Shown: piece after piece, positions 20,128 through 43,399 of the stretch
Position numbering within the stretch: the stretch's first letter is position 1
Layout: each line of letters begins with the position of its first letter
Assembly: GCA_021734255.1 (NCBI GenBank)
Contig: JAIPJM010000013.1
Coordinates: 1 to 64,000, forward strand
Length of the DNA stretch: 64,000 nucleotides
Origin: Fidelibacterota bacterium
GTDB taxonomy: Bacteria > Fidelibacterota > UBA8477 > JABMPR01
Direction of reading: 5' to 3'
Notes under the pieces: model-generated
What the model was told of the DNA's origin: nothing
What the model saw: only the letters and a program-made list of their open reading frames with translations
Databases searched by the model: none
Translations under genes and position numbers: made by a program

Positions 20128-21336
20128 CTAAACCTTTTCAATCACCGAAGAGATACCTTGCCCCACACCTATACACATGGTACAGAGGGCCCGTTTTGCA
20201 TCAGAATTCTTTAACTGGTGGGCAGCAGAGGTCAGCAGTCTTGCGCCACTCATTCCCAGGGGGTGACCCAGGGCAATGGCACCACCCAGGGGATTGATCC
20301 GGGGATCATCATCTGCCAGCCCCATTTGACGCGTCACACCAAGTGATTGAGCGGCGAAAGCTTCATTCAGCTCGATAATGTCCATATCTTTCAGATCCAT
20401 ACCCAGTTGTTTCAGCAGCTTCTCGGTTGCTGGCACCGGTCCCATCCCCATGATGCGAGGGGGTACGCCTGCCACCTGCATACCCAGGAAGCGGGCAATG
20501 GGTGTCAAGCCATACTGCTTCACGGCATCTTCAGAAGCCACGATCAACGCTGCCGCACCATCGTTTATTCCTGAAGCGTTCCCTACAGAGATGCTTGTCC
20601 CTTCCCCAAGAATAGGTCTTAGACTCGCCAACTTTTCCAGGGAGGACAGCCGCAGGTGTTCATCTTGCTCGAAAATCAGGTCTTCCTGCTTGCGCCGGGG
20701 AATCTTCACGGGAATGATCTCATGGGCCAACATGCCATTATCTTGGGCTGTCTGTGCCTTAGACTGACTCCAAAAGGAAAATTGATCCTGGTCCTCCCGG
20801 CTGATCCCATTTTCCTGAGCAATATTTTCAGCCGTCTGTATCAGAGACTGGGTGTGCCCCATCTTTTCCATTTGCTTATTCACAAAACGCCACCCAATGG
20901 TGGTGTCATAGGTCTCTGGTGTTCGGGAAAATGCCTGCAATGGCTTGGACATAACCCAGGGTGATCGGGACATGCTTTCAACGCCACCAGCCAGAATGAG
21001 ATCGGCTTCATTGGCGCGAATGGCCCGGGCTGCAGTCCCGACTGCATCCATACCTGACCCGCAGAGTCGATTAATGGTTGCACCCGGTACGGTCTCGGGG
21101 ATCCCGGCCAGAAGTAAGGCCATACGAGCGACATTACGGTTGTCTTCTCCGGCCTGATTGGCACATCCGAATAACACATCATCCAGTGCATCCCAATCCA
21201 CATCCTGATTTCGCTCCATCAGCGCTTTTAACGGAATCGCTGCCAGATCATCTGTTCTTACTGAAGACAATGAGCCACCATATCCACCAACCGGTGTTCT
21301 TATCGCATCACAGATAAATACGTCTCTCATGATCAT
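20128..21336 (-). CDS. Acetyl-CoA acyltransferase (thiolase), beta-ketoadipyl-CoA thiolase-like
   Basis: 402 residues. The family cleaves 3-ketoacyl-CoA with CoA to acetyl-CoA and a shortened acyl-CoA. NRLCGSGMDAV holds the acylated Cys (near residue 90). NEAFAAQ, GGAIALGHPLGMSGAR (catalytic His) and CTMCIGVGQG (second Cys) are all intact. The start codon overlaps the aminotransferase stop; a second ATG two codons on (21330) is better spaced from AAAGGA. It is the last gene of the six-gene operon, where it would act on the ketoacyl-CoA made by the CoA-transferase. Substrate chain is unknown. Confidence 0.93.
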   Translation of the reverse strand: MIMRDVFICDAIRTPVGGYGGSLSSVRTDDLAAIPLKALMERNQDVDWDALDDVLFGCANQAGEDNRNVARMALLLAGIPETVPGATINRLCGSGMDAVGTAARAIRANEADLILAGGVESMSRSPWVMSKPLQAFSRTPETYDTTIGWRFVNKQMEKMGHTQSLIQTAENIAQENGISREDQDQFSFWSQSKAQTAQDNGMLAHEIIPVKIPRRKQEDLIFEQDEHLRLSSLEKLASLRPILGEGTSISVGNASGINDGAAALIVASEDAVKQYGLTPIARFLGMQVAGVPPRIMGMGPVPATEKLLKQLGMDLKDMDIIELNEAFAAQSLGVTRQMGLADDDPRINPLGGAIALGHPLGMSGARLLTSAAHQLKNSDAKRALCTMCIGVGQGISSVIEKV

Positions 21337-22706
21337 CCTTTCGGGTCAGCTTTTTTATGTTTTTCGTGATAGCGGTCCCACACCTCATTCAGCTCTGCCT
21401 TATTTGCCTTGAATGCATTCATTAAACCCTGCGAAAGCCGGTCCACTTCCTGCTGGCCGATGGCAGTCGAAAACATACATGTGCCTGTATTCACCATGAT
21501 GATGTTTTCCTTATAGAACATATGATCCAGAATTTTGGTCATAACTGCCTTCTCTTCTTTGAACTGAAAAGCCTCTCGATAACTCTCAGGAGCATTCCGT
21601 CTGGGGTGAAGACGGAACATGGATCCCAGTCCAGAAATAGACATGGGCACGTCGGCTAACTTGATCGCTTCATTGATCTGAGAGATGGCCCTGGCTGTTA
21701 ACTCATTCAGGTCGAGAATTGCATTTTGATCAAAATCCTGCATAGCTACATAGCCTGCTGTCATTGTGATCGGATTGGCAGAGAATGTGCCTGAATGGGG
21801 TAAGCGCAAGGGAGATTCATTGGGATCCATGACGGACATGACGTCTGAGCGACCAGCAAACGCTCCCACAGGGAAGCCGCCTCCGATCAATTTTCCCAAT
21901 GCGGTCAAGTCTGGCTTGACGCTATAATTCTGCTGGGCGCCACCATAGGTCGTTCTGAAGGTGATAACCTCATCAAAGACCAGGAGGGTGTCGTGCTTTC
22001 TCGTCCAGGCATACACCGCTTCCACAAACGCATCAGTTGCCGCAAACAGCCCTACCCGGTGAGGGATTGGATCGATGAGTACACAGGCAAGATCGTCAGC
22101 ATTTTCATCCAGCAGATTCAGCGTGTTCTCAATGTCATTAAAGGGATAGACCACTACGTCTTCCAGGACTCCTGGGGGCGTTCCAAAGGCCAGGGGGTTT
22201 CGATTGGGATGATCGATCGGTCCCCAGTTCTCAGGGCTGGATACCTGGCTGACCTCAACAAAGTCATAGGTACCATTATAGGATCCTTCGGCTTTGGCGA
22301 TCTTTGACTTACCGGTAAATGCGCGAGCAGCCTTCACCATGGACATAACTGCTTCGGTCCCTGAATTCACAAATCTGATCTTATCAAAATCAGGCGCCCG
22401 ACTCGTCAGGTGCTGGGCATATCGTACTTCAACCTCAGTTGCCAGTGTATAAGCTGTGCCTTTTTTCAGTTGTTCGGTCACCGCCTCGACGATGGGTGGA
22501 TATGCATGGCCATGGATCAGGGAAGCCATGTTGTTGGCGAAATCGATCCGTTGTGTTCCATCAATATCCGTGACCATGCAGCCACTTGCACCGGACACAT
22601 AGTGGGGGAAGGGTTTATGAAAGATGGTGTTACGGCTGACACCGCCAGGTAAAACAGTTACTGCGTCAGCGTAGATCTTTTCACTACTTTTCTTTTCAGT
22701 GTTCAT
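21333..22706 (-). CDS. Class III PLP aminotransferase, GSAM / beta-amino-acid transaminase-like
   Basis: 457 residues. It resembles glutamate-1-semialdehyde aminomutase and the related beta-amino-acid transaminases. VNSGTEAVMSMVKAARA binds PLP phosphate, LLVFDEVITFR carries the PLP-ring Asp, and LGKLIGGGFPVGAFAG the Schiff-base Lys. No heme-biosynthesis genes are near; instead it sits between CoA-transferase and thiolase genes, overlapping the thiolase by 4 bp. In this setting it more likely transaminates a beta-amino acid (the product of the upstream aminomutase-like enzyme) to a beta-keto acid than makes aminolevulinate. That role is inference; the fold-type I assignment is solid. Confidence 0.88.
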   Translation of the reverse strand: MNTEKKSSEKIYADAVTVLPGGVSRNTIFHKPFPHYVSGASGCMVTDIDGTQRIDFANNMASLIHGHAYPPIVEAVTEQLKKGTAYTLATEVEVRYAQHLTSRAPDFDKIRFVNSGTEAVMSMVKAARAFTGKSKIAKAEGSYNGTYDFVEVSQVSSPENWGPIDHPNRNPLAFGTPPGVLEDVVVYPFNDIENTLNLLDENADDLACVLIDPIPHRVGLFAATDAFVEAVYAWTRKHDTLLVFDEVITFRTTYGGAQQNYSVKPDLTALGKLIGGGFPVGAFAGRSDVMSVMDPNESPLRLPHSGTFSANPITMTAGYVAMQDFDQNAILDLNELTARAISQINEAIKLADVPMSISGLGSMFRLHPRRNAPESYREAFQFKEEKAVMTKILDHMFYKENIIMVNTGTCMFSTAIGQQEVDRLSQGLMNAFKANKAELNEVWDRYHEKHKKADPKG

Positions 22707-22730
22707 GGCAGGAGCCCTTTAAGCTTGTGA

Positions 22731-23381
22731 TTACTGAATCAGCTTTGGTTCACTCTGCTCCTGGAGATAGTCAAAACTTACACCGGGAGCCAACTCACGT
22801 ACCTTCAAGCCTTCATCACTAATCTCGATGATTGCAAGATTGCTGTAAACCCGATCAACTATGCCTTTCCCCGTGAGTGGGAAAGCGCAGTTATTGACCA
22901 GCTTCATTTGGCCATCTTTGCTTACATGATCCGTGATCACCCATACATTTTTCACACCAGCAACCAGGTCCATAGCCCCCCCAACTGCAGGGATGGCTCC
23001 TGGTTTGCCTGTCGACCAGTTTGCCAGGTCACCGTTCTTTGACACCTGCAGAGCTCCCAACACAGAGATATCAAGATGTCCCCCTCGGATCATGGTAAAA
23101 CTATCGGCATGGTGGAAATAACAGGCACCCGGGATGGCCGTTACATATTTTTTTCCGGCATTGATCAATTCAATATCGCGATTGGCTTCATCAGGCACTG
23201 GCCCCATACCCAGAAGACCATTTTCGGTATGATAGATCACTTCAATGCCTGCTGGCACATGGTCGGCGACAAGTTCAGGAATGCCGATCCCTAGATTCAC
23301 ATACGAGCCATCTGGTATATCCTGTGCGGCTTTCTGGGCCATCTCGATCCGGCTCCAGCCCATACTTTCTCCTGTACTCAT
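22731..23381 (-). CDS. 3-oxoacid CoA-transferase, subunit B
   Basis: 216 residues. Subunit B of the two-subunit family (ScoB/AtoA/PcaJ) that moves CoA from succinyl-CoA or acetyl-CoA onto a 3-oxo acid. It has LGIGIPELVADH near the start and HTENGLLGMGP, whose Glu is the catalytic residue forming the glutamyl-CoA intermediate. GGAMDLVAGVKNVWV is another family stretch. Its start overlaps the stop of subunit A by 4 bp, as usual for stoichiometric partners. The operon context suggests a beta-keto acid derived from an amino acid as acceptor. Confidence 0.93.
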   Translation of the reverse strand: MSTGESMGWSRIEMAQKAAQDIPDGSYVNLGIGIPELVADHVPAGIEVIYHTENGLLGMGPVPDEANRDIELINAGKKYVTAIPGACYFHHADSFTMIRGGHLDISVLGALQVSKNGDLANWSTGKPGAIPAVGGAMDLVAGVKNVWVITDHVSKDGQMKLVNNCAFPLTGKGIVDRVYSNLAIIEISDEGLKVRELAPGVSFDYLQEQSEPKLIQ

Positions 23382-24091
23382 GATGGATACCTCTCCTGAT
23401 TGGCTACCAGAATGGATTCGTGGGCAGGGTCAGCAATATGCACCACGCGATTGACGAAAATGCCCGGTGTTACAACAACTTCAGGATCTATTGCTCCAGG
23501 TTCAACAATGTGTTTGGCCTGGACAATTGTTGTTTCTGCTGCCGTACACATAATGGGACCAAAATTTCTTGCCGTTCGATGATAGGTGAGGTTCCCGTAT
23601 CGATCGGCAGTATGGCATTTTACCAGACTGAAGTCAGCCCGGATACCATATTCCATCACGTAGGTCTGTCCATTAAAGTCTCTGGTTTCCTTACCATCAG
23701 CCAGGGGTGTATTCACTGAGGAAGGTGTAAAGAAGGCTGGAATGCCTGCCCCCCCTGCTCGGATACGTTCTGCCAACGTTCCCTGGGGGACCAATTCCAA
23801 TTCGATCTCTCCCGCTCGATACAATTCGGGAAAGACGACCGAGCCGGCAGTCCTTGGGAAGGAGCAGATCATCTTCCTGACCTGTCGATTCTCAATGAGA
23901 GCTGCCAGACCCACATTACCGCTGCCGGTGTTATTGCTGACAACGGTCAGATCTTTTGCTCCACGATCTATCAGCCTGTGAATTAACTCGATGGGACTGC
24001 CTGCTTCGCCAAATCCCCCGATCATCACTGTGGCGCCATCAAATATGTCGGATACAGCCTCTGCGTCCGACTTTACAAGCTTGTTTATCAT
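23378..24091 (-). CDS. 3-oxoacid CoA-transferase, subunit A
   Basis: 237 residues. Subunit A (ScoA/AtoD/PcaI type), with the family glycine motif VMIGGFGEAGSPIELI near the N terminus, then NNTGSGNVGLAALIE, VPQGTLAERIRAGGAGIPAFFTP and GNLTYHRTARNFGPIM. It pairs with subunit B encoded next. It begins 7 bp after the KamA-like gene, which indicates a single transcript. Acceptor specificity (acetoacetate, 3-oxoadipate or another beta-keto acid) cannot be told from sequence by eye. Confidence 0.93.
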   Translation of the reverse strand: MINKLVKSDAEAVSDIFDGATVMIGGFGEAGSPIELIHRLIDRGAKDLTVVSNNTGSGNVGLAALIENRQVRKMICSFPRTAGSVVFPELYRAGEIELELVPQGTLAERIRAGGAGIPAFFTPSSVNTPLADGKETRDFNGQTYVMEYGIRADFSLVKCHTADRYGNLTYHRTARNFGPIMCTAAETTIVQAKHIVEPGAIDPEVVVTPGIFVNRVVHIADPAHESILVANQERYPS

Positions 24092-24098
24092 GTGACCT

Positions 24099-25703
24099 CT
24101 ACTCTAAAACTGGTTCTGCTATCTTCTGTTGTTTTGCCATATATTTTTGGAATTGATCCTCAAGTTCGCCCTCTACACGTTTCAGATCTTCTTCAAAGAA
24201 GTACTTATCTGATTGAAGCGGGACCAACTTCTCTATGGTATTTTCTTTTTCATCATATTTGGCCAGAAAAACAGTGTCCATCCAATCCATATTCCGACTT
24301 TCATTGAATTTGAGTACAAAGGCCTTCTCGCCATTGACCATGGTTGTTCCCAGGAGCGATATCTTCCCTGCAGAGGAGGTCATTGTGATGAACCGTGTGG
24401 GCCGACCTACTGAAGGCAAAGCCTTGTAGACCATGGTGAATATCTTATCCATGTCCGCCAGGGGTGAGGTGAAATAATCATGTTCACCCGTTGGTCTGGC
24501 GCAATACATGGAGTGGAAGGTAATTCCTAACATCATGAAGATGTTCCCCATATCGATCCAGCTGTTTGCCGTTCGTTCCACCTCGACCTTACCCTCATTA
24601 TCCATAAATAGACTAATGTGGTTCATAACTGGGCTTTGACTGCGGATACGAATACCGTTCAAGCGTAGACGACGAATAGCAGCCAGCGTATGGACATTCA
24701 ACAATTCTTTGGGAACGGAGAAATGTGCTACCCAAATGACCTGAATGCCATGGTCGATGACCTCTTTCAATATCTTCAGCGTTTTATCCCATTGGGAACT
24801 TACCACGATACCGGGTTCATAGGTCAACGCGCGCGAAGCGATACGGATGGTACGAATATGCTGCAATTCCGGGTCTTCCATTATTGGCCTTAGGTAGGCT
24901 TCAAAACGCCAGTCTGGCATGTAGCCAGCATCTCCACCGGTCATTAGAATATCGGTGATCTCCTTGTGCTTTCTCCAATAGTCTTGCACCTGAACCACAT
25001 CATCCTGAATAAACATATCATCATCACCACGCACCTGAGCATGTCGAAAACAATAGGTACAGTAAGCAAAGCAGCCCTGGGTGGTCTTGTCCAGAAGGAG
25101 AAATACGGGTGGATATTTATGCTGACCACCATCGACAGCCTCCCATTCACCTTCATCGGTATGGAATGAGGGGCGGTTGAGTAGTTGTTTACCATCATGG
25201 GGATTGGTTTTGTCGCGGTAATTGACCACATATTTCATGCGTTCAGCATCGTCCTCAATCACTTTATAACCATCAACAATTGGCTTTTCGATCATGTTGG
25301 GTTGGGGGATGATGAGCTGAAAGACCGGGTCCGTTTCATAGTTATCCCAATCAATGGTATCCAGGACATGTTTCGTTGCTAAAAATGCATAAACCTCAAC
25401 GAACAGTTCCCTTTCTTTGATGTCGGTCAGAAAGATCCCATTTGACTCAAGGATCCCAATGACATCGCGAAAACCAGAAAGACCGGAATACTTATTTTTG
25501 CCTTTGGCAAACAGCGCTTTCGAATGTTCTGTGAACATGGAATGCTGGGGATAATTACGATGCAGGCGTTCGATGAGTGTTGTAGGTAAAAGGTTTTCAT
25601 TCGCGATGACCTGTTTTGCGTCGTCACTCAAGGCATGGTGATCCATGAGCATATCTATATGGGATTGGGTGAAATTGATTTTATTCTCGGCCGTTGCTGA
25701 CAT
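24099..25703 (-). CDS. KamA-family radical SAM aminomutase, long form
   Basis: 534 residues, about 120 more than classical lysine 2,3-aminomutase. A roughly 190-residue N-terminal part precedes TQGCFAYCTYCFRH, the CxxxCxxC motif (near residues 209-216) for the 4Fe-4S cluster and SAM. ILMTGGDAG replaces the usual SGGDP, RIASRALTYEPG replaces RIGTRAP, and SSAGKISLLG near the C terminus is a plausible counterpart of the PLP-Lys loop (GGGGKxP). The family moves an alpha-amino group to the beta carbon via PLP and a 5'-deoxyadenosyl radical. With transaminase, CoA-transferase and thiolase downstream, a 2,3-aminomutase feeding beta-amino acid breakdown is likely. Substrate unknown. Confidence 0.85.
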   Translation of the reverse strand: MSATAENKINFTQSHIDMLMDHHALSDDAKQVIANENLLPTTLIERLHRNYPQHSMFTEHSKALFAKGKNKYSGLSGFRDVIGILESNGIFLTDIKERELFVEVYAFLATKHVLDTIDWDNYETDPVFQLIIPQPNMIEKPIVDGYKVIEDDAERMKYVVNYRDKTNPHDGKQLLNRPSFHTDEGEWEAVDGGQHKYPPVFLLLDKTTQGCFAYCTYCFRHAQVRGDDDMFIQDDVVQVQDYWRKHKEITDILMTGGDAGYMPDWRFEAYLRPIMEDPELQHIRTIRIASRALTYEPGIVVSSQWDKTLKILKEVIDHGIQVIWVAHFSVPKELLNVHTLAAIRRLRLNGIRIRSQSPVMNHISLFMDNEGKVEVERTANSWIDMGNIFMMLGITFHSMYCARPTGEHDYFTSPLADMDKIFTMVYKALPSVGRPTRFITMTSSAGKISLLGTTMVNGEKAFVLKFNESRNMDWMDTVFLAKYDEKENTIEKLVPLQSDKYFFEEDLKRVEGELEDQFQKYMAKQQKIAEPVLE

Positions 25704-25728
25704 AAGCTAACTCCTTATTATCTGGGAC

Positions 25729-26283
25729 TCAGTTGTTCTGGTTTACGATCCACAACAATTGTGAGTTATCTTTACTCTTGTTAGTGAACAGATGGGTCTC
25801 ATTGGATGTAAAGTAAAAGCTGTCACCTTCTTTGATCGTGTACTTCGCCGCTCCAATGATGACATCAAACTTCCCGTTTAGGACAAAGCAATATTCCTGT
25901 CTGGGATTGTTGGTCGTCATAATATCGGATGAATCCGCTCCAGGTTTAAAATCCAGCATGAAGGGATCCATTAATTTTGATTGATCGTGGTGGGATAGCA
26001 GATAGGACCGCGTCCCTGTTTTGTTCTTCTTAACAAACTTTTTCTCACGCTTCTTGAGCACAGGATGGGCATTCAGATCACTGTCCTCACCGATGATCTC
26101 ACCGACGGTGATATGGAGCGAGTCTGCGATCTTTTTCAGGGTCAATATCGAGGGGAACGCCTTCGCACGCTCGATCTGAGAGATCAGGCTAGCAGTTACA
26201 CCGACCGAGCTGGCCAGATCGCCAGCCTGGATATTCAAACTTTCCCGCCGTCTCCGGATCCGTTCTCCCATTAAGTCCATCAT
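25729..26283 (-). CDS. XRE-HTH / cupin transcriptional regulator
   Basis: 184 residues. An N-terminal Cro/C1 HTH (RIRRRRESLNIQAGDLAS, then TASLISQIERAKAFPSI) is joined to a C-terminal cupin domain (NNPRQEYCFVLNGKFDVIIG, IKEGDSFYFTSNETH). Regulators of this build (PuuR/SutR-like) usually sense a small molecule, often an amine or amino acid, through the cupin. It is the first gene of the operon, 25 bp before the aminomutase, so it probably controls the whole set, perhaps through the AT-rich inverted repeat at 26311-26327. Control and ligand are inferred. Confidence 0.9.
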   Translation of the reverse strand: MMDLMGERIRRRRESLNIQAGDLASSVGVTASLISQIERAKAFPSILTLKKIADSLHITVGEIIGEDSDLNAHPVLKKREKKFVKKNKTGTRSYLLSHHDQSKLMDPFMLDFKPGADSSDIMTTNNPRQEYCFVLNGKFDVIIGAAKYTIKEGDSFYFTSNETHLFTNKSKDNSQLLWIVNQNN

Positions 26284-26393: not shown

Positions 26394-27593
26394 CTAAGGC
26401 AGGCTGGAAATAATAGCGTCCGTCATTTCGCTGGTGCTGGAGGCCCCTTGCTGGAGCACATCTTCAGAACCAGCTAGTTTCGACATATCATAGGTTCTGA
26501 CCTTGCCGGCGGCTATGACTCGGGCTATCGCCTGACGGATATGCGTGGCTTTCTCTTCCTCACCCAGGTGTTCAAGCATCATACAACTTGATTCAATCAT
26601 GGCGATGGGGTTAACAATAGGGGTCTGAAAGTCAGCATATTTTGGCGCGCTGCCGTGGGTGGGTTCAAAGACAGCAACACCCGTATCTGGATTGAATTGG
26701 GCACTGCTGGCAAAACCCAACCCTCCGATCAGACCAGCAAAGCCATCAGACACAATATCGCCGAACATGTTCCCTGCGACGATAACACCATAATCCTCAG
26801 GGTTTTTCGTGAGCCACATCATTTGTGCATCAATATTGGTATTCCACAACTCAATTTCGGGATATGTTTCTACTTGAAGTTTTTTAGCCATTTCGTACAT
26901 CATCCCTGATGTTTCCCGGATCACATTGGGCTTCTCACATAGGGTGACCGAGGCATAGTTGCGCTTCCTGGCATACTCAAATGCTGCACCTAGTATTCTC
27001 TGGGTTGCTTTCCTGGTAAAAATTCGACTGGAGATCGCCAGCTCCTCTTTAGGAACATTCCCGAAGTTCTTACGAAAGGCCGGGTGGCTGAAAAAAGCAG
27101 CATAAACGTCGTCTGGCGGATCACGCCATTCCACGCCCCCATAGAGGCCTTCTGTGTTTTGCCTGAAGATAGCAACGTCTATTGCAGGCTCTTCGATGAT
27201 CTCTCCTCGACCACGTCGAATAAAATTAAGCGGGTTGCCCTTGTAACTTCTGCAGGGGCGAAGACAGATATCCAGACCAAAATACTGACGCAAGCCGACA
27301 ATGGGGCTGGAGTATATCAGGTTCTGTTTGACCAGTTCAGGTGATAATTCCTTCTGTGCATCAACTTTGGGTTTGGAGGTGATCGCACCAAAGAGGGCGA
27401 CCTTGTGCTCACTGATCAGGTCAAGGGTTCGCTGCGGGAGGGCATTGCCTTCGGAGCGCCAGAATTCCCATCCGATATCACCCAGCACGTATTCAGCATT
27501 AAAACCAACCGCATCCAAAACCCTGATCGCTTCAGCCAGAACCACTTTACCGATCCCATCTCCGGGAAGCACAACGATGGTCCAATTGCTCAT
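26394..27593 (-). CDS. Isocitrate/isopropylmalate dehydrogenase-family enzyme (isocitrate or homoisocitrate dehydrogenase)
   Basis: 399 residues. A beta-decarboxylating dehydrogenase: LPGDGIGK at the N terminus, LRPCRSYKG and FRQNTEGLYGGVEW for substrate binding, GNMFGDIVSDGFAGLIGGLG with the metal-binding Asp residues, and FEPTHGSAPKYA at the cofactor site. The family includes isocitrate, homoisocitrate and isopropylmalate dehydrogenases. The absence of leu genes and the aconitase/homoaconitase-type gene three genes upstream make isocitrate or homoisocitrate the likely substrate. Its start overlaps the HAD gene stop (ATGA). Confidence 0.85.
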   Translation of the reverse strand: MSNWTIVVLPGDGIGKVVLAEAIRVLDAVGFNAEYVLGDIGWEFWRSEGNALPQRTLDLISEHKVALFGAITSKPKVDAQKELSPELVKQNLIYSSPIVGLRQYFGLDICLRPCRSYKGNPLNFIRRGRGEIIEEPAIDVAIFRQNTEGLYGGVEWRDPPDDVYAAFFSHPAFRKNFGNVPKEELAISSRIFTRKATQRILGAAFEYARKRNYASVTLCEKPNVIRETSGMMYEMAKKLQVETYPEIELWNTNIDAQMMWLTKNPEDYGVIVAGNMFGDIVSDGFAGLIGGLGFASSAQFNPDTGVAVFEPTHGSAPKYADFQTPIVNPIAMIESSCMMLEHLGEEEKATHIRQAIARVIAAGKVRTYDMSKLAGSEDVLQQGASSTSEMTDAIISSLP

Positions 27594-29436: not shown

Positions 29437-31374
29437 CTAAAGCCTCTCCTTAACCCAATTCTCCAACCCGCCTGCCAGTATCAGCTCTTGTGCAGCTTTA
29501 CCCAGAGGTTGAAATGTGAATGTCTGGTCATTGTGATGAATGGATGTATGTTCAAAATTTACTGTTGTTCCTATTCCTGTGTCTACTGTGAGTTTATGCC
29601 GCCCATGGCTTTCAACAAGATAATTCACAAATTCTGGAGACTCTAATATGATAAACCCATTATTTAGTGCATTGCGTTTATAGGTCTCGTTAAAAGATCC
29701 GGCAATAAGTAGCGAAACACCGGCATGCTTGAAGGCTGTAGCCGCTTGCTCGCGGGAGCTACCGGTACCAAAATTGAATCCGCCTACCAGGAGAGTCCCC
29801 TTCCTGACCAGATCACGAAACGACTCATCATAATTCTGCATCACCACTTCAGCTTCTTCTTCAGGCGTGAGATCATCACGATAGGTGTAGCTGCCTGGGA
29901 AAATGCCATCCGTATTAAGATTATCCTGGTGACAAAACAGTGTGGACCCGCTTACTTCACTGGGAAAACCCGGCAATAACTCAACTTCCGCAGGTATCCC
30001 CGTTGTTTTCTGGATCAGCTTGACCCGTCCCTTTGGAATTTGGTCCTCGTAGGCGAGGTGTGATACCAGTTTACCCGCAACGGCCGATGCAGCCACAACG
30101 GCGGGAGATGCCAGATAGACCTGAGCATCCTTGGAGCCCATCCTGCCTTTGAAATTGCGGTTGGTTGCCGAGATCCCAACCTCTCCATCTTCTACGAGAC
30201 CTACTCCCAGCCCGATACAGGGTCCACAACCAGAGGGTAAAACCTTTGCACCGGCTTCAACTAAAATCTGCCAGTCTCCCCTCCGCTTGCTTTCTGCTTC
30301 AACTTCACTGGATGCCGCCGCAACATAAAAGTCAACACCTCCGGCTACACGTTGGCCTTTCAACACGCCAGCTGCTTCAGCCAGGTCTTCAACCCGGCTA
30401 TTCACACATGAGAGGAGATATGCTTTCTGAATACTGATATCTTTTTTTCCCAGCAGGCCAGCAGAATGTATGGTCTTCACATGATCGGGGCCAGCCACCA
30501 GGGGCGTGATCGTCTCAAGATCCAGTTCGAGTTCTTTTGCATAGACCGCATCTGGATCAGCAAAGGGTGCCTCATGTTTCAGCACAGCGATCCGGTCAAT
30601 GTTCATACGGGTGTGAGTTTCCGCTCCAGTTCCCTCCATTGACACAGCTCTCGATTCCAGCCAGCTGTAGGTGATCGCATCCACAGGAAAGACACCTGCT
30701 CGGGCACCCCATTCTGTGGTCATGTTAGCAATAGTCAGCCTTTGTTCCAATGAGAGGTCCTGTAGACCATCTCCAGCAAATTCAACGGCATGGTTTAGCA
30801 CCTCATCATGATTAAAAAGGCCAGTTAAAGCAATGATGACGTCCTTGCCACTTACGCCCGGTCGCAAACGACCATGCAGATAGACCCTGACGACCGGCGG
30901 TACTTGCCACCAGATCTTGCCCGTTGCCCAGACAGCAGCTGCATCTGTTCTCACAACAGGCGTCCCCAAAGCGCCCAGACCACCGTACATATTGGCATGA
31001 CTATCGGAAGCAACCACCAGGTCACCTGGCCAGGCATAGCCTTCTTCACACATGATCTGGTGTCCAATCCCCCGGCCAGCAGGGTAAAAATCGACCCCGT
31101 TCTTTTTGGCAAAAGCTTCAATGGCGGCATATTTGTTGCGTGTCTGACTGCTTTGGTCCTGAATATTATGATCCAAGGCGAATACTGCTTGACGATCATC
31201 TTTTATTGCTGAGCAGCCCATTTGCTTGAATTTTTTCATAATGGCAGAGGTGTTATCATGGGTCAGAATGTGTGCCGGCCTGATGGTCACATAGTCACCA
31301 CTCTGGAGTATCTGCCCAGGCTCCAGATCTACAGCAAACTTCTGTACGATCTTCTCTATCAGGGTTTGTACCAT
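29437..31374 (-). CDS. Aconitase-family hydro-lyase (aconitate hydratase or homoaconitase)
   Basis: 645 residues. The aconitase core is present: SDSHANMYGGLGALG, VNSRVEDLAEA and PSGCGPCIGLG (Cys ligands of the 4Fe-4S cluster). A C-terminal swivel domain has GSSREQAATAFKHAGVSLLIAGSF. The stretch WATGKIWWQVPPVVRV and the size recall fungal-type homoaconitase as well as short bacterial aconitases. It would isomerise citrate or homocitrate to its iso-form, and the dehydrogenase at 26394-27593 in the same transcript would be the next step. Whether this serves the TCA cycle or an aminoadipate-type pathway is not decided by sequence alone. Confidence 0.87.
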   Translation of the reverse strand: MVQTLIEKIVQKFAVDLEPGQILQSGDYVTIRPAHILTHDNTSAIMKKFKQMGCSAIKDDRQAVFALDHNIQDQSSQTRNKYAAIEAFAKKNGVDFYPAGRGIGHQIMCEEGYAWPGDLVVASDSHANMYGGLGALGTPVVRTDAAAVWATGKIWWQVPPVVRVYLHGRLRPGVSGKDVIIALTGLFNHDEVLNHAVEFAGDGLQDLSLEQRLTIANMTTEWGARAGVFPVDAITYSWLESRAVSMEGTGAETHTRMNIDRIAVLKHEAPFADPDAVYAKELELDLETITPLVAGPDHVKTIHSAGLLGKKDISIQKAYLLSCVNSRVEDLAEAAGVLKGQRVAGGVDFYVAAASSEVEAESKRRGDWQILVEAGAKVLPSGCGPCIGLGVGLVEDGEVGISATNRNFKGRMGSKDAQVYLASPAVVAASAVAGKLVSHLAYEDQIPKGRVKLIQKTTGIPAEVELLPGFPSEVSGSTLFCHQDNLNTDGIFPGSYTYRDDLTPEEEAEVVMQNYDESFRDLVRKGTLLVGGFNFGTGSSREQAATAFKHAGVSLLIAGSFNETYKRNALNNGFIILESPEFVNYLVESHGRHKLTVDTGIGTTVNFEHTSIHHNDQTFTFQPLGKAAQELILAGGLENWVKERL

Positions 31375-41848: not shown

Positions 41849-43399
41849 CTAAAGGGGAATATTTCCATGTTTTTTCTGGGGGTTTGTATCAACCTTGTTC
41901 TCCAGCATCTCATACGCCCTGATCAGTTTCAGGCGGGTTTGGTTGGGCTCAATAACCTCGTCCACATACCCCCGCTCTGCTGCCGAATAAGGATTTGCAA
42001 ATCGTTCCGCGAATTCATCTGTCAGCTTCTCCAGCGCTGCGTCCGGGTCGTCCGATTTAGCGATCTCTTTCCTGAAAATGATCTCAGTGGCGCCCTTGGC
42101 ACCCATGACGGCGATCTCCGCGCATGGCCAGGCAAAATTCATATCACCTCGAATATGTTTGGAGTTCATCACATCGTAAGCCCCACCGTAGGCTTTCCGC
42201 GTGATCACCGTTACTTTTGGTACCGTGGCTTCAGCAAATGCAAAGAGTAGCTTTGCCCCGTTCCTGATGATCCCACCCCACTCCTGATCAGTGCCTGGTA
42301 AAAATCCTGGAACGTCTTCAAAGACGAGCAGTGGAATATTGAAGGCATCACAGAAGCGAACAAAACGAGCGCCTTTTACAGAGGAGTCAATATCCAGAAC
42401 ACCTGCGAGAAATGCTGGCTGGTTCGCAATGACGCCAAGCGATTTGCCGTTTAATCTGGTAAAGCCGACCACCATATTCTGCGCATACTGTTCATGCACT
42501 TCAAAAAATTCACCATTGTCAACAATAGCATGAATAACGTCTTTAATATCATAGGGTTTGTTCGGGTTCTCTGGAACGATGGAGTCTAATTCTTTTGCTT
42601 CTCGATCGATGGGGTCGTCGCACTTAACGGTCGGTGGCTCATCCAGATTGTTCTGGGGAATATAGCTCAACAACTTTTTGATCCCCTCGATCACTTCAAT
42701 TTCATTATCACAGGTAAAATGACTGACACCTGATTTACTGCCATGTGCTGTGGCTCCGCCAAGATCCTCTTTGCTTACCTCTTCATGCGTGACTGTTTTA
42801 ACGACCTCTGGACCTGTGACGAACATGTAGCTGGTCCCTTTTGTCATAAAGATGAAATCGGTGATAGCCGGAGAATAAACAGCGCCGCCGGCACAGGGAC
42901 CCAGAATTGCTGAGATCTGGGGGACAACACCACTCATCAAGGTATTCTTCAGAAATATATCTGCATAACCTGCCAGACTAACAACCCCCTCCTGGATGCG
43001 AGCACCACCACTGTCGTTCAACCCGATCACGGGTGCACCTACCTTGGCGGCCAGGTCCATGATCTTGACGATCTTTTCGGCATAGGCTTCAGAGAGTGAT
43101 CCGCCCATAACTGTAAAATCCTGACTGAAAACGAAAACCGTACGACCGCCGATCGTTCCATGTCCAGTCACCACACCATCACCTAGAAATTTTTGTTTCT
43201 CCAGGCCAAAATTGGTGGATCGGTGGGTCACCAGCATGCCCATTTCTTCAAAAGAACCTGGATCCAGTAGTAGGTCCAGACGTTCTCGTGCTGAAAGTTT
43301 CTGTTTGGCATGTTGTGCATCCAGTCGGTCCTGCCCACCGCCCAGCAGAGCTTTCGCTTTTAAACCGCGTAGCTGCTTTATGCGGTCTTTTCTACTCAT
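41849..43399 (-). CDS. Acyl-CoA carboxylase carboxyltransferase (propionyl-CoA carboxylase beta / methylmalonyl-CoA decarboxylase alpha)
   Basis: 516 residues. Two crotonase-like halves: [33 protein letters not shown] (oxyanion hole, biotin pocket), [16 protein letters not shown], and [27 protein letters not shown] plus [11 protein letters not shown]. This family transfers carboxyl from carboxybiotin to propionyl- or other acyl-CoA, or works in sodium-pump decarboxylases. No biotin carboxylase or biotin-carrier gene is in the window. It overlaps the B12-binding subunit by 4 bp, which points to propionyl-CoA/methylmalonyl-CoA chemistry. Confidence 0.94.

Follow-up and report, generated by a model that had tools for sequence, protein, structure and literature searches.

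A conserved five-gene cassette predicted to degrade lysine through 2-aminoadipate and 3-oxoadipate in uncultured bacteria

Five adjacent enzyme genes in a 64,000-nucleotide stretch of DNA from a Fidelibacterota bacterium (the window; positions 1 to 64,000 of contig JAIPJM010000013.1, assembly GCA_021734255.1) encode a KamA-like radical S-adenosylmethionine (SAM) enzyme, the A and B subunits of a CoA-transferase, a class III aminotransferase and a thiolase. Together they are predicted to act as a catabolic module that carries lysine degradation, by way of 2-aminoadipate and 3-oxoadipate, to its end at acetyl-CoA and succinyl-CoA, a reading to which we give a probability of about 0.7. From the gene set, its conservation, the catalytic residues, the thiolase subtype and the genes forming 2-aminoadipate, all read in the DNA, we infer each substrate and which way the flux runs.

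The operon and the proposed route

The genes lie in an operon at positions 20128-26283, with six open reading frames (ORFs), all on the minus strand, and intergenic gaps of -4, +24, -4, +7 and +25 bp. An earlier note, made from the letters alone, had drawn the operon at these coordinates and named its genes, and family scans of all six ORFs back each name, the KamA assignment weakly. In transcription order they are:

25729..26283, minus strand: XRE-cupin transcriptional regulator, lineage-specific (HTH_3 and Cupin_2 domains)
24099..25703, minus strand: KamA-like radical SAM enzyme, 534 aa, predicted 2-aminoadipate 2,3-aminomutase (2a5h as best fold and sequence match; motif residues)
23378..24091, minus strand: 3-oxoacid CoA-transferase subunit A, PcaI/ScoA type (TIGR02429)
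22731..23381, minus strand: 3-oxoacid CoA-transferase subunit B, PcaJ/ScoB type (TIGR02428)
21333..22706, minus strand: class III aminotransferase, predicted 3-aminoadipate:2-oxoacid transaminase (solved relatives, sub-HemL score)
20128..21336, minus strand: 3-oxoadipyl-CoA thiolase, PcaF/PaaJ type (curated equivalog passed)

Scans for consensus promoters and terminators found such sites no more often than in shuffled sequence. Carriers were sought in a genome collection, and then in 245 genomes of Neomarinimicrobiota (the phylum of the present genome) and 297 of a second phylum, which is that of the Ignavibacterium metagenome-assembled genome (MAG) G249 (region L008) and is taken as Bacteroidota in the GTDB sense. 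In the collection, proteins related to the KamA-like enzyme turned up in two same-genus Neomarinimicrobiota MAGs, three Ignavibacterium MAGs, one Chlorobiaceae-labelled MAG and one unplaced MAG. In all, 12 further genomes from at least two phyla hold the five enzyme genes in the same order, so the arrangement is not due to chance, and the co-conservation in relatives that the earlier note had asked for is present. The XRE-cupin gene adjoins the cassette in own-genus carriers only, and the conserved unit therefore has five genes rather than the six first proposed. With the present genome (G000), the strong carriers number 13 (G000, G227, G228, G230, G231, G234, G129, G247-G251 and G321). The KamA-like gene is the first enzyme gene in all 13, and CoA-transferase A follows it in every relative; in G248 (region L007) the contig stops within the latter gene. 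The distribution is patchy, with six carriers within the genus and none among the remaining genus members searched. The cassette KamA-like proteins form one clade, in which the aminomutase of G129, a member of another family (region L073), nests among the own-genus sequences (L075-L077 and the window) with tree support of 97/96, which suggests horizontal transfer of the cassette.

In the proposed route, lysine would be converted to 2-aminoadipate by enzymes encoded elsewhere in the genome, through the saccharopine route in this genus and through lysine 6-aminotransferase (LAT) in most other carriers. The KamA-like enzyme, using radical SAM chemistry and pyridoxal phosphate (PLP), would move the amino group from C2 to C3, giving 3-aminoadipate, which the class III aminotransferase would convert to 3-oxoadipate by passing the amino group to a 2-oxo acid. 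The PcaIJ-type CoA-transferase would then form 3-oxoadipyl-CoA, with succinyl-CoA as the probable CoA donor, and the PcaF-type thiolase would cleave this with CoA into acetyl-CoA and succinyl-CoA. The succinyl-CoA could re-prime the CoA-transferase; on balance, 2-aminoadipate would then yield acetyl-CoA, succinate and glutamate. None of the four module steps would need oxygen or an electron acceptor, and no CO2 would be lost. The sequence of a 2,3-amino shift, beta-transamination, CoA transfer and thiolysis had been put forward in the earlier note and is judged sound; its products, acetyl-CoA with an acyl-CoA derived from leucine, lysine or glutamate, give way here to the predicted pair of acetyl-CoA and succinyl-CoA.

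The enzymes and their predicted substrates

The thiolase, correctly named as such before, can be refined to the 3-oxoadipyl-CoA type. The window protein scores 633.7 bits against the PcaF equivalog (cut-off 597) and 653.5 bits against PRK09050 (cut-off 605), both models of 3-oxoadipyl-CoA thiolase, and every cassette copy tested (the window and eight others, 9/9) passes the 3-oxoadipyl-CoA cut-off. The catalytic residues C92, H358 and C388 are invariant. Across the 245 Neomarinimicrobiota genomes, 14 pass the PcaF model, half of them strong cassette carriers. Five loci of the remaining seven were read (G151, G152, G154, G156 and G157); four lie within phenylacetate (paa) gene clusters recognised by eye, and the copy of G151, whose contig is 4.4 kb long, has the same genes directly beside it. 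PaaJ in phenylacetate degradation cuts 3-oxoadipyl-CoA, and as far as checked the PcaF signal in the phylum is thus confined to cassettes and to loci where a 3-oxoadipyl-CoA step is known. Another thiolase of the own genome is 35% identical to the cassette enzyme (tblastn).

Both CoA-transferase subunits pass their curated models (A, 347 bits against the TIGR02429 cut-off of 128.5; B, 289 bits against the TIGR02428 cut-off of 243.5), which cover 3-oxoadipate and acetoacetate activity alike. The catalytic glutamate of subunit B (E53, in a TENG motif) is invariant in the aligned copies. CoA-transferase A and B together with a thiolase of this type make up the pcaIJF set, which acts on 3-oxoadipate in the beta-ketoadipate pathway.

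The KamA-like protein falls below every curated aminomutase cut-off (71.1 bits against 199.2 for TIGR00238; 65.6 against 525 for lysine 2,3-aminomutase, TIGR03820; 49.1 against 650 for glutamate 2,3-aminomutase, TIGR04368) and is longer than known KamA proteins. By these scores it is a divergent KamA relative, outside the family in the curated definition. Its only solved relative, by sequence and by fold, is the lysine 2,3-aminomutase 2a5h, at about 20% identity and with a fold match spanning 440 columns. An AlphaFold model, built from 8 sequences with a mean predicted local distance difference test (pLDDT) score of 60, recovers 2a5h as its top fold match and is unfit for pocket geometry. The cysteines of the CxxxCxxC cluster motif (C211, C215 and C218) and the PLP lysine K447, whose presence the earlier note had made a point to check, are invariant in the cassette copies, and R220, R403 and K447 are invariant in 11 of 11 aligned copies. 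Residues Y290-K337 of 2a5h align with Y400-K447 of the window protein without a gap, and the equivalents are K337 with K447, the alpha-carboxylate arginine R134 with R220, D293 with R403 and D330 with T440.

In lysine 2,3-aminomutase, D293 and D330 hold the amine of the substrate side chain. The replacement of both by Arg403 and Thr440 is constant across the cassette copies, and because both aspartates are lost and an arginine is gained at the D293 column, the substrate probably carries an anion or carboxylate at its distal end. Two other KamA-family proteins of the own genome (L011 and L012; 326-366 and 487 aa) retain both aspartates, unlike the cassette enzyme. A sister KamA-like family (L078-L086, for example L081:9842-11167), of about 440-510 aa and about 33% identical, keeps the PYY anchor of 2a5h and carries Arg in the column of D293 and Ser in that of D330. 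It occurs in about 30 of the 297 Bacteroidota genomes and in two Neomarinimicrobiota, and in nine regions examined it has no other cassette genes nearby and no neighbours that recur by eye.

The class III aminotransferase scores 322 bits against the HemL model TIGR00713 (cut-off 527; cassette copies 317-366 bits), and is therefore not of the HemL type, one of the outcomes on which the earlier proposal had been staked. Its closest solved relatives are 6k8h, ForI, glutamate-1-semialdehyde aminomutase (GSAM) and beta-transaminases, and its K272 and D245 are invariant. A separate HemL above the cut-off is present in four carriers (G247, G249, G250 and G321).

Taken with the thiolase, these residues weaken the substrates named in the earlier note. 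Leucine and lysine conflict with the exchange of the lysine-binding D293 and D330 for Arg403 and Thr440, and leucine, lysine and glutamate all conflict with a thiolase that passes the cut-off for 3-oxoadipyl-CoA, a C6 dicarboxylic substrate, in 9/9 copies. That list overlooked 2-aminoadipate, for whose formation from lysine this genome has the genes.

Source of 2-aminoadipate, neighbouring genes and rival readings

Outside the window, the own genome carries three adjacent genes (G000:C22, about 31.5-35.7 kb) for a lysine-ketoglutarate reductase (LKR; match to the LKR domain of human AASS at 1e-57), a saccharopine dehydrogenase (match to saccharopine reductase at 1e-95) and a piperideine-6-carboxylate dehydrogenase (786 bits, cut-off 730). 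By homology this trio makes 2-aminoadipate from lysine. Either LAT above cut-off or saccharopine dehydrogenase is found in 13/13 carriers: LAT in those outside the genus (G129 and G247-G251), and saccharopine dehydrogenase with no LAT in G321. The 2-aminoadipate-forming dehydrogenase adjoins LAT in G129 and lies a few genes off in G247. Piperideine-6-carboxylate dehydrogenase is above cut-off in 11/13 carriers, the exceptions being G250, with a LAT-adjacent aldehyde dehydrogenase at 349 bits, and G248, with none. Elsewhere in the own genome (L118:7752-10297, G000:C19), a second, shorter saccharopine-dehydrogenase-like protein of 375 aa, possibly a lysine 6-dehydrogenase or a polyamine enzyme, has directly behind it an amino acid transporter of APC type, from the YjeM/GadC group.

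Several observations weigh against the lysine assignment. LAT is widespread, occurring in 151 of 245 and 158 of 297 genomes of the two phyla; being so common, its co-occurrence with the cassette is weak evidence, implying that the substrate is available and not that it is used, and we reject it as stand-alone proof. The cassette is unlinked to lysine genes in every genome read. The usual outlet of 2-aminoadipate is glutaryl-CoA dehydrogenase (GCDH), and a GCDH signal, sought with a 47-residue probe, was seen in 10 of the 13 carriers; the same probe found none in the own genome (91% complete), G231 or G250. The KamA-like protein is distant from 2a5h, and one profile alignment places a gap in the stretch around R403, moving that residue by one column; the match of R403 to D293 is preferred because of the gap-free Y290-K337/Y400-K447 spacing and the anchoring of the sister family by PYY. 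Finally, R403 at the D293 column fits any acidic substrate, and taken alone would suit glutamate and 2-aminoadipate equally.

A role for the cassette as a replacement for GCDH is unsupported, given the signal in those 10 carriers; within the genus the signal is absent in 2/6 carriers against 0/11 non-carriers tested, numbers too small to mean much. In many carriers the cassette would instead be an extra outlet; the oxygen sensitivity of radical SAM aminomutases suggests that it may serve when oxygen is absent.

Upstream of the operon, a homoaconitase-type gene, a CDF transporter, a HAD phosphatase and an isocitrate/homoisocitrate-dehydrogenase-like gene are kept with the cassette within the genus. 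The two that may bear on C6-acid metabolism are:

26394..27593, minus strand: isocitrate/homoisocitrate-dehydrogenase-like gene, outside the conserved cassette (AksF models, below cut-offs)
29437..31374, minus strand: homoaconitase-type aconitase-family gene, genus-conserved neighbour (TIGR00139 above cut-off)

The latter scores 785 bits against the TIGR00139 homoaconitase model (cut-off 530) and 365 against an aconitate hydratase model (cut-off 612). The former is best matched by AksF homoisocitrate dehydrogenase models (245 and 243 bits) and is syntenic with the cassette in L004, L005 and L075-L077. The pair could be the tricarboxylic acid cycle enzymes of the lineage or C6-acid enzymes. In the 55% of the own genome read, E. 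coli queries found no second aconitase or isocitrate dehydrogenase, citrate synthase, DapA, DapB, LysA or LeuA, absences that mean little at this partial coverage. Farther along the window, among minus-strand genes, 41849-43399 (minus strand) encodes a carboxyltransferase subunit of the methylmalonyl-CoA decarboxylase/propionyl-CoA carboxylase type (815 bits, below the cut-off of 999).

The main rival substrate is glutamate, which would pass through 3-aminoglutarate, 3-oxoglutarate and 3-oxoglutaryl-CoA to acetyl-CoA and malonyl-CoA. Glutamate 2,3-aminomutase likewise has a basic residue (Lys) for D293, with Asn for D330, and this speaks for glutamate together with R403; the thiolase equivalog passed by 9/9 copies and a score far short of the glutamate 2,3-aminomutase cut-off (49 bits against 650) speak the other way, simpler outlets exist for glutamate, and we consider this version unlikely. 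More doubtful still is lysine itself, or leucine or another neutral amino acid, as the direct substrate of a beta-lysine or beta-leucine route. Kinship with the KamA family, with 2a5h as nearest solved structure, would fit it, as would Bacillus subtilis, whose kamA and class III transaminase gene yodT both depend on SigE (PMC6522883). Against these stand the change of both lysine-binding aspartates to Arg and Thr, invariant in the cassette copies, the lysine aminomutase score (66 against 525), the absence of an acetyltransferase and a deacylase from the cassette, and a thiolase subtype that expects a dicarboxylic acyl-CoA.

We think it just as improbable that the KamA-like protein modifies a protein or another molecule while the other four genes degrade an externally supplied beta-amino acid or 3-oxoadipate. 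Its distance from all characterised aminomutases, its scores below all curated cut-offs, its extra length and the nine sister-family regions without other cassette genes are in keeping with such a role, but its constant place at the head of the cassette in 13/13 strong carriers and the invariance of its catalytic cysteines, PLP lysine and carboxylate arginine argue against it. Least probable of all, and very improbable, is a biosynthetic reversal, from acetyl-CoA and succinyl-CoA through 3-oxoadipate to 2-aminoadipate, feeding lysine or another product. The homoaconitase-type and homoisocitrate-dehydrogenase-like genes upstream suit it, and so does the failure to find DapA, DapB and LysA in the 55% of the genome read, although that covers only about half of the genome. 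Against it, a thiolase is thermodynamically ill-suited to condensation, piperideine-6-carboxylate dehydrogenase works oxidatively and the LAT of most other carriers is catabolic.

Known systems and implications

The proposed degradation of 2-aminoadipate shares its end with the beta-ketoadipate pathway, in which pcaIJF likewise combines CoA-transferase A/B with 3-oxoadipyl-CoA thiolase and yields acetyl-CoA and succinyl-CoA; the front end there is aromatic ring cleavage, and here an aminomutase and a beta-transaminase. PaaJ of the phylum's paa clusters is 53-59% identical to the cassette thiolases and belongs to the same curated family with the same predicted reaction, but it lies beside ring-epoxidation and beta-oxidation genes, and its cluster has no CoA-transferase, aminomutase or aminotransferase of the kinds found in the cassette. 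With KamA of Clostridium subterminale (2a5h) the cassette enzyme has in common the radical SAM cysteines, the PLP lysine, the carboxylate arginine and the fold; it differs in its low identity, a longer N-terminal region and Arg/Thr for Asp293/Asp330.

In B. subtilis the CoA-transferase genes yodRS presumably share an operon with kamA and yodT (yodPQRS), which we take to include also an acetyltransferase and a deacylase. If so, an aminomutase, CoA-transferase A/B and a class III transaminase stand together there as in the cassette, whereas that KamA is canonical (60% identical to 2a5h) and a PcaF thiolase is missing. The sporulation genes kamA and yodT depend on SigE, and their role is still unknown (PMC6522883). 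Lysine fermentation also starts with a 2,3-aminomutase, may use a HemL-like beta-transaminase (Kat, in the Cloacamonas variant) and ends with a thiolase and a CoA-transferase, but it depends on kamDE, kdd and kce, and the compound that it transaminates is 3-aminobutyryl-CoA (PMC3149608). The genes kamDE, kdd, kce and kal/kat are absent from the operon (no genome-wide search was made). Degradation of lysine by the saccharopine or LAT route has the steps from lysine to 2-aminoadipate in common with the proposed route, in the same genomes; its known continuation is different, passing by 2-oxoadipate and glutaryl-CoA and releasing CO2.

The earlier note knew of no named pathway with exactly this gene set, and none was found in the literature searched. 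In the open-access literature no description was found of the route, of a link between an aminomutase and 3-oxoadipate, or of 3-aminoadipate as a metabolite; two matches that came up were a meteorite study and a review in which the sole occurrence is a cited title on the product of lysine 6-aminotransferase. It seems fairly probable that lysine reaches 3-oxoadipate here by a route of its own, joining a new type of 2-aminoadipate 2,3-aminomutase and a 3-aminoadipate transaminase to pcaIJF, with no CO2 loss and no glutaryl-CoA step. The enzyme families and the end module are known; the front end and the predicted specificity of the aminomutase would be new.

On this reading, annotation gene by gene, as lysine aminomutase, GSAM, acetoacetate CoA-transferase and thiolase, would lead to the wrong pathway. 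If the proposed route is correct, 3-aminoadipate would be a new metabolic intermediate, and radical SAM aminomutases would gain a new specificity in which arginine replaces a substrate-binding aspartate. Lysine degradation and the beta-ketoadipate pathway would meet at 3-oxoadipate, and a carbon-conserving route between lysine and 3-oxoadipate may be of use in engineering adipate-type chemicals. Uncultured Neomarinimicrobiota and Ignavibacteria would gain a full route for breaking down an amino acid, one whose substrate can be tested.

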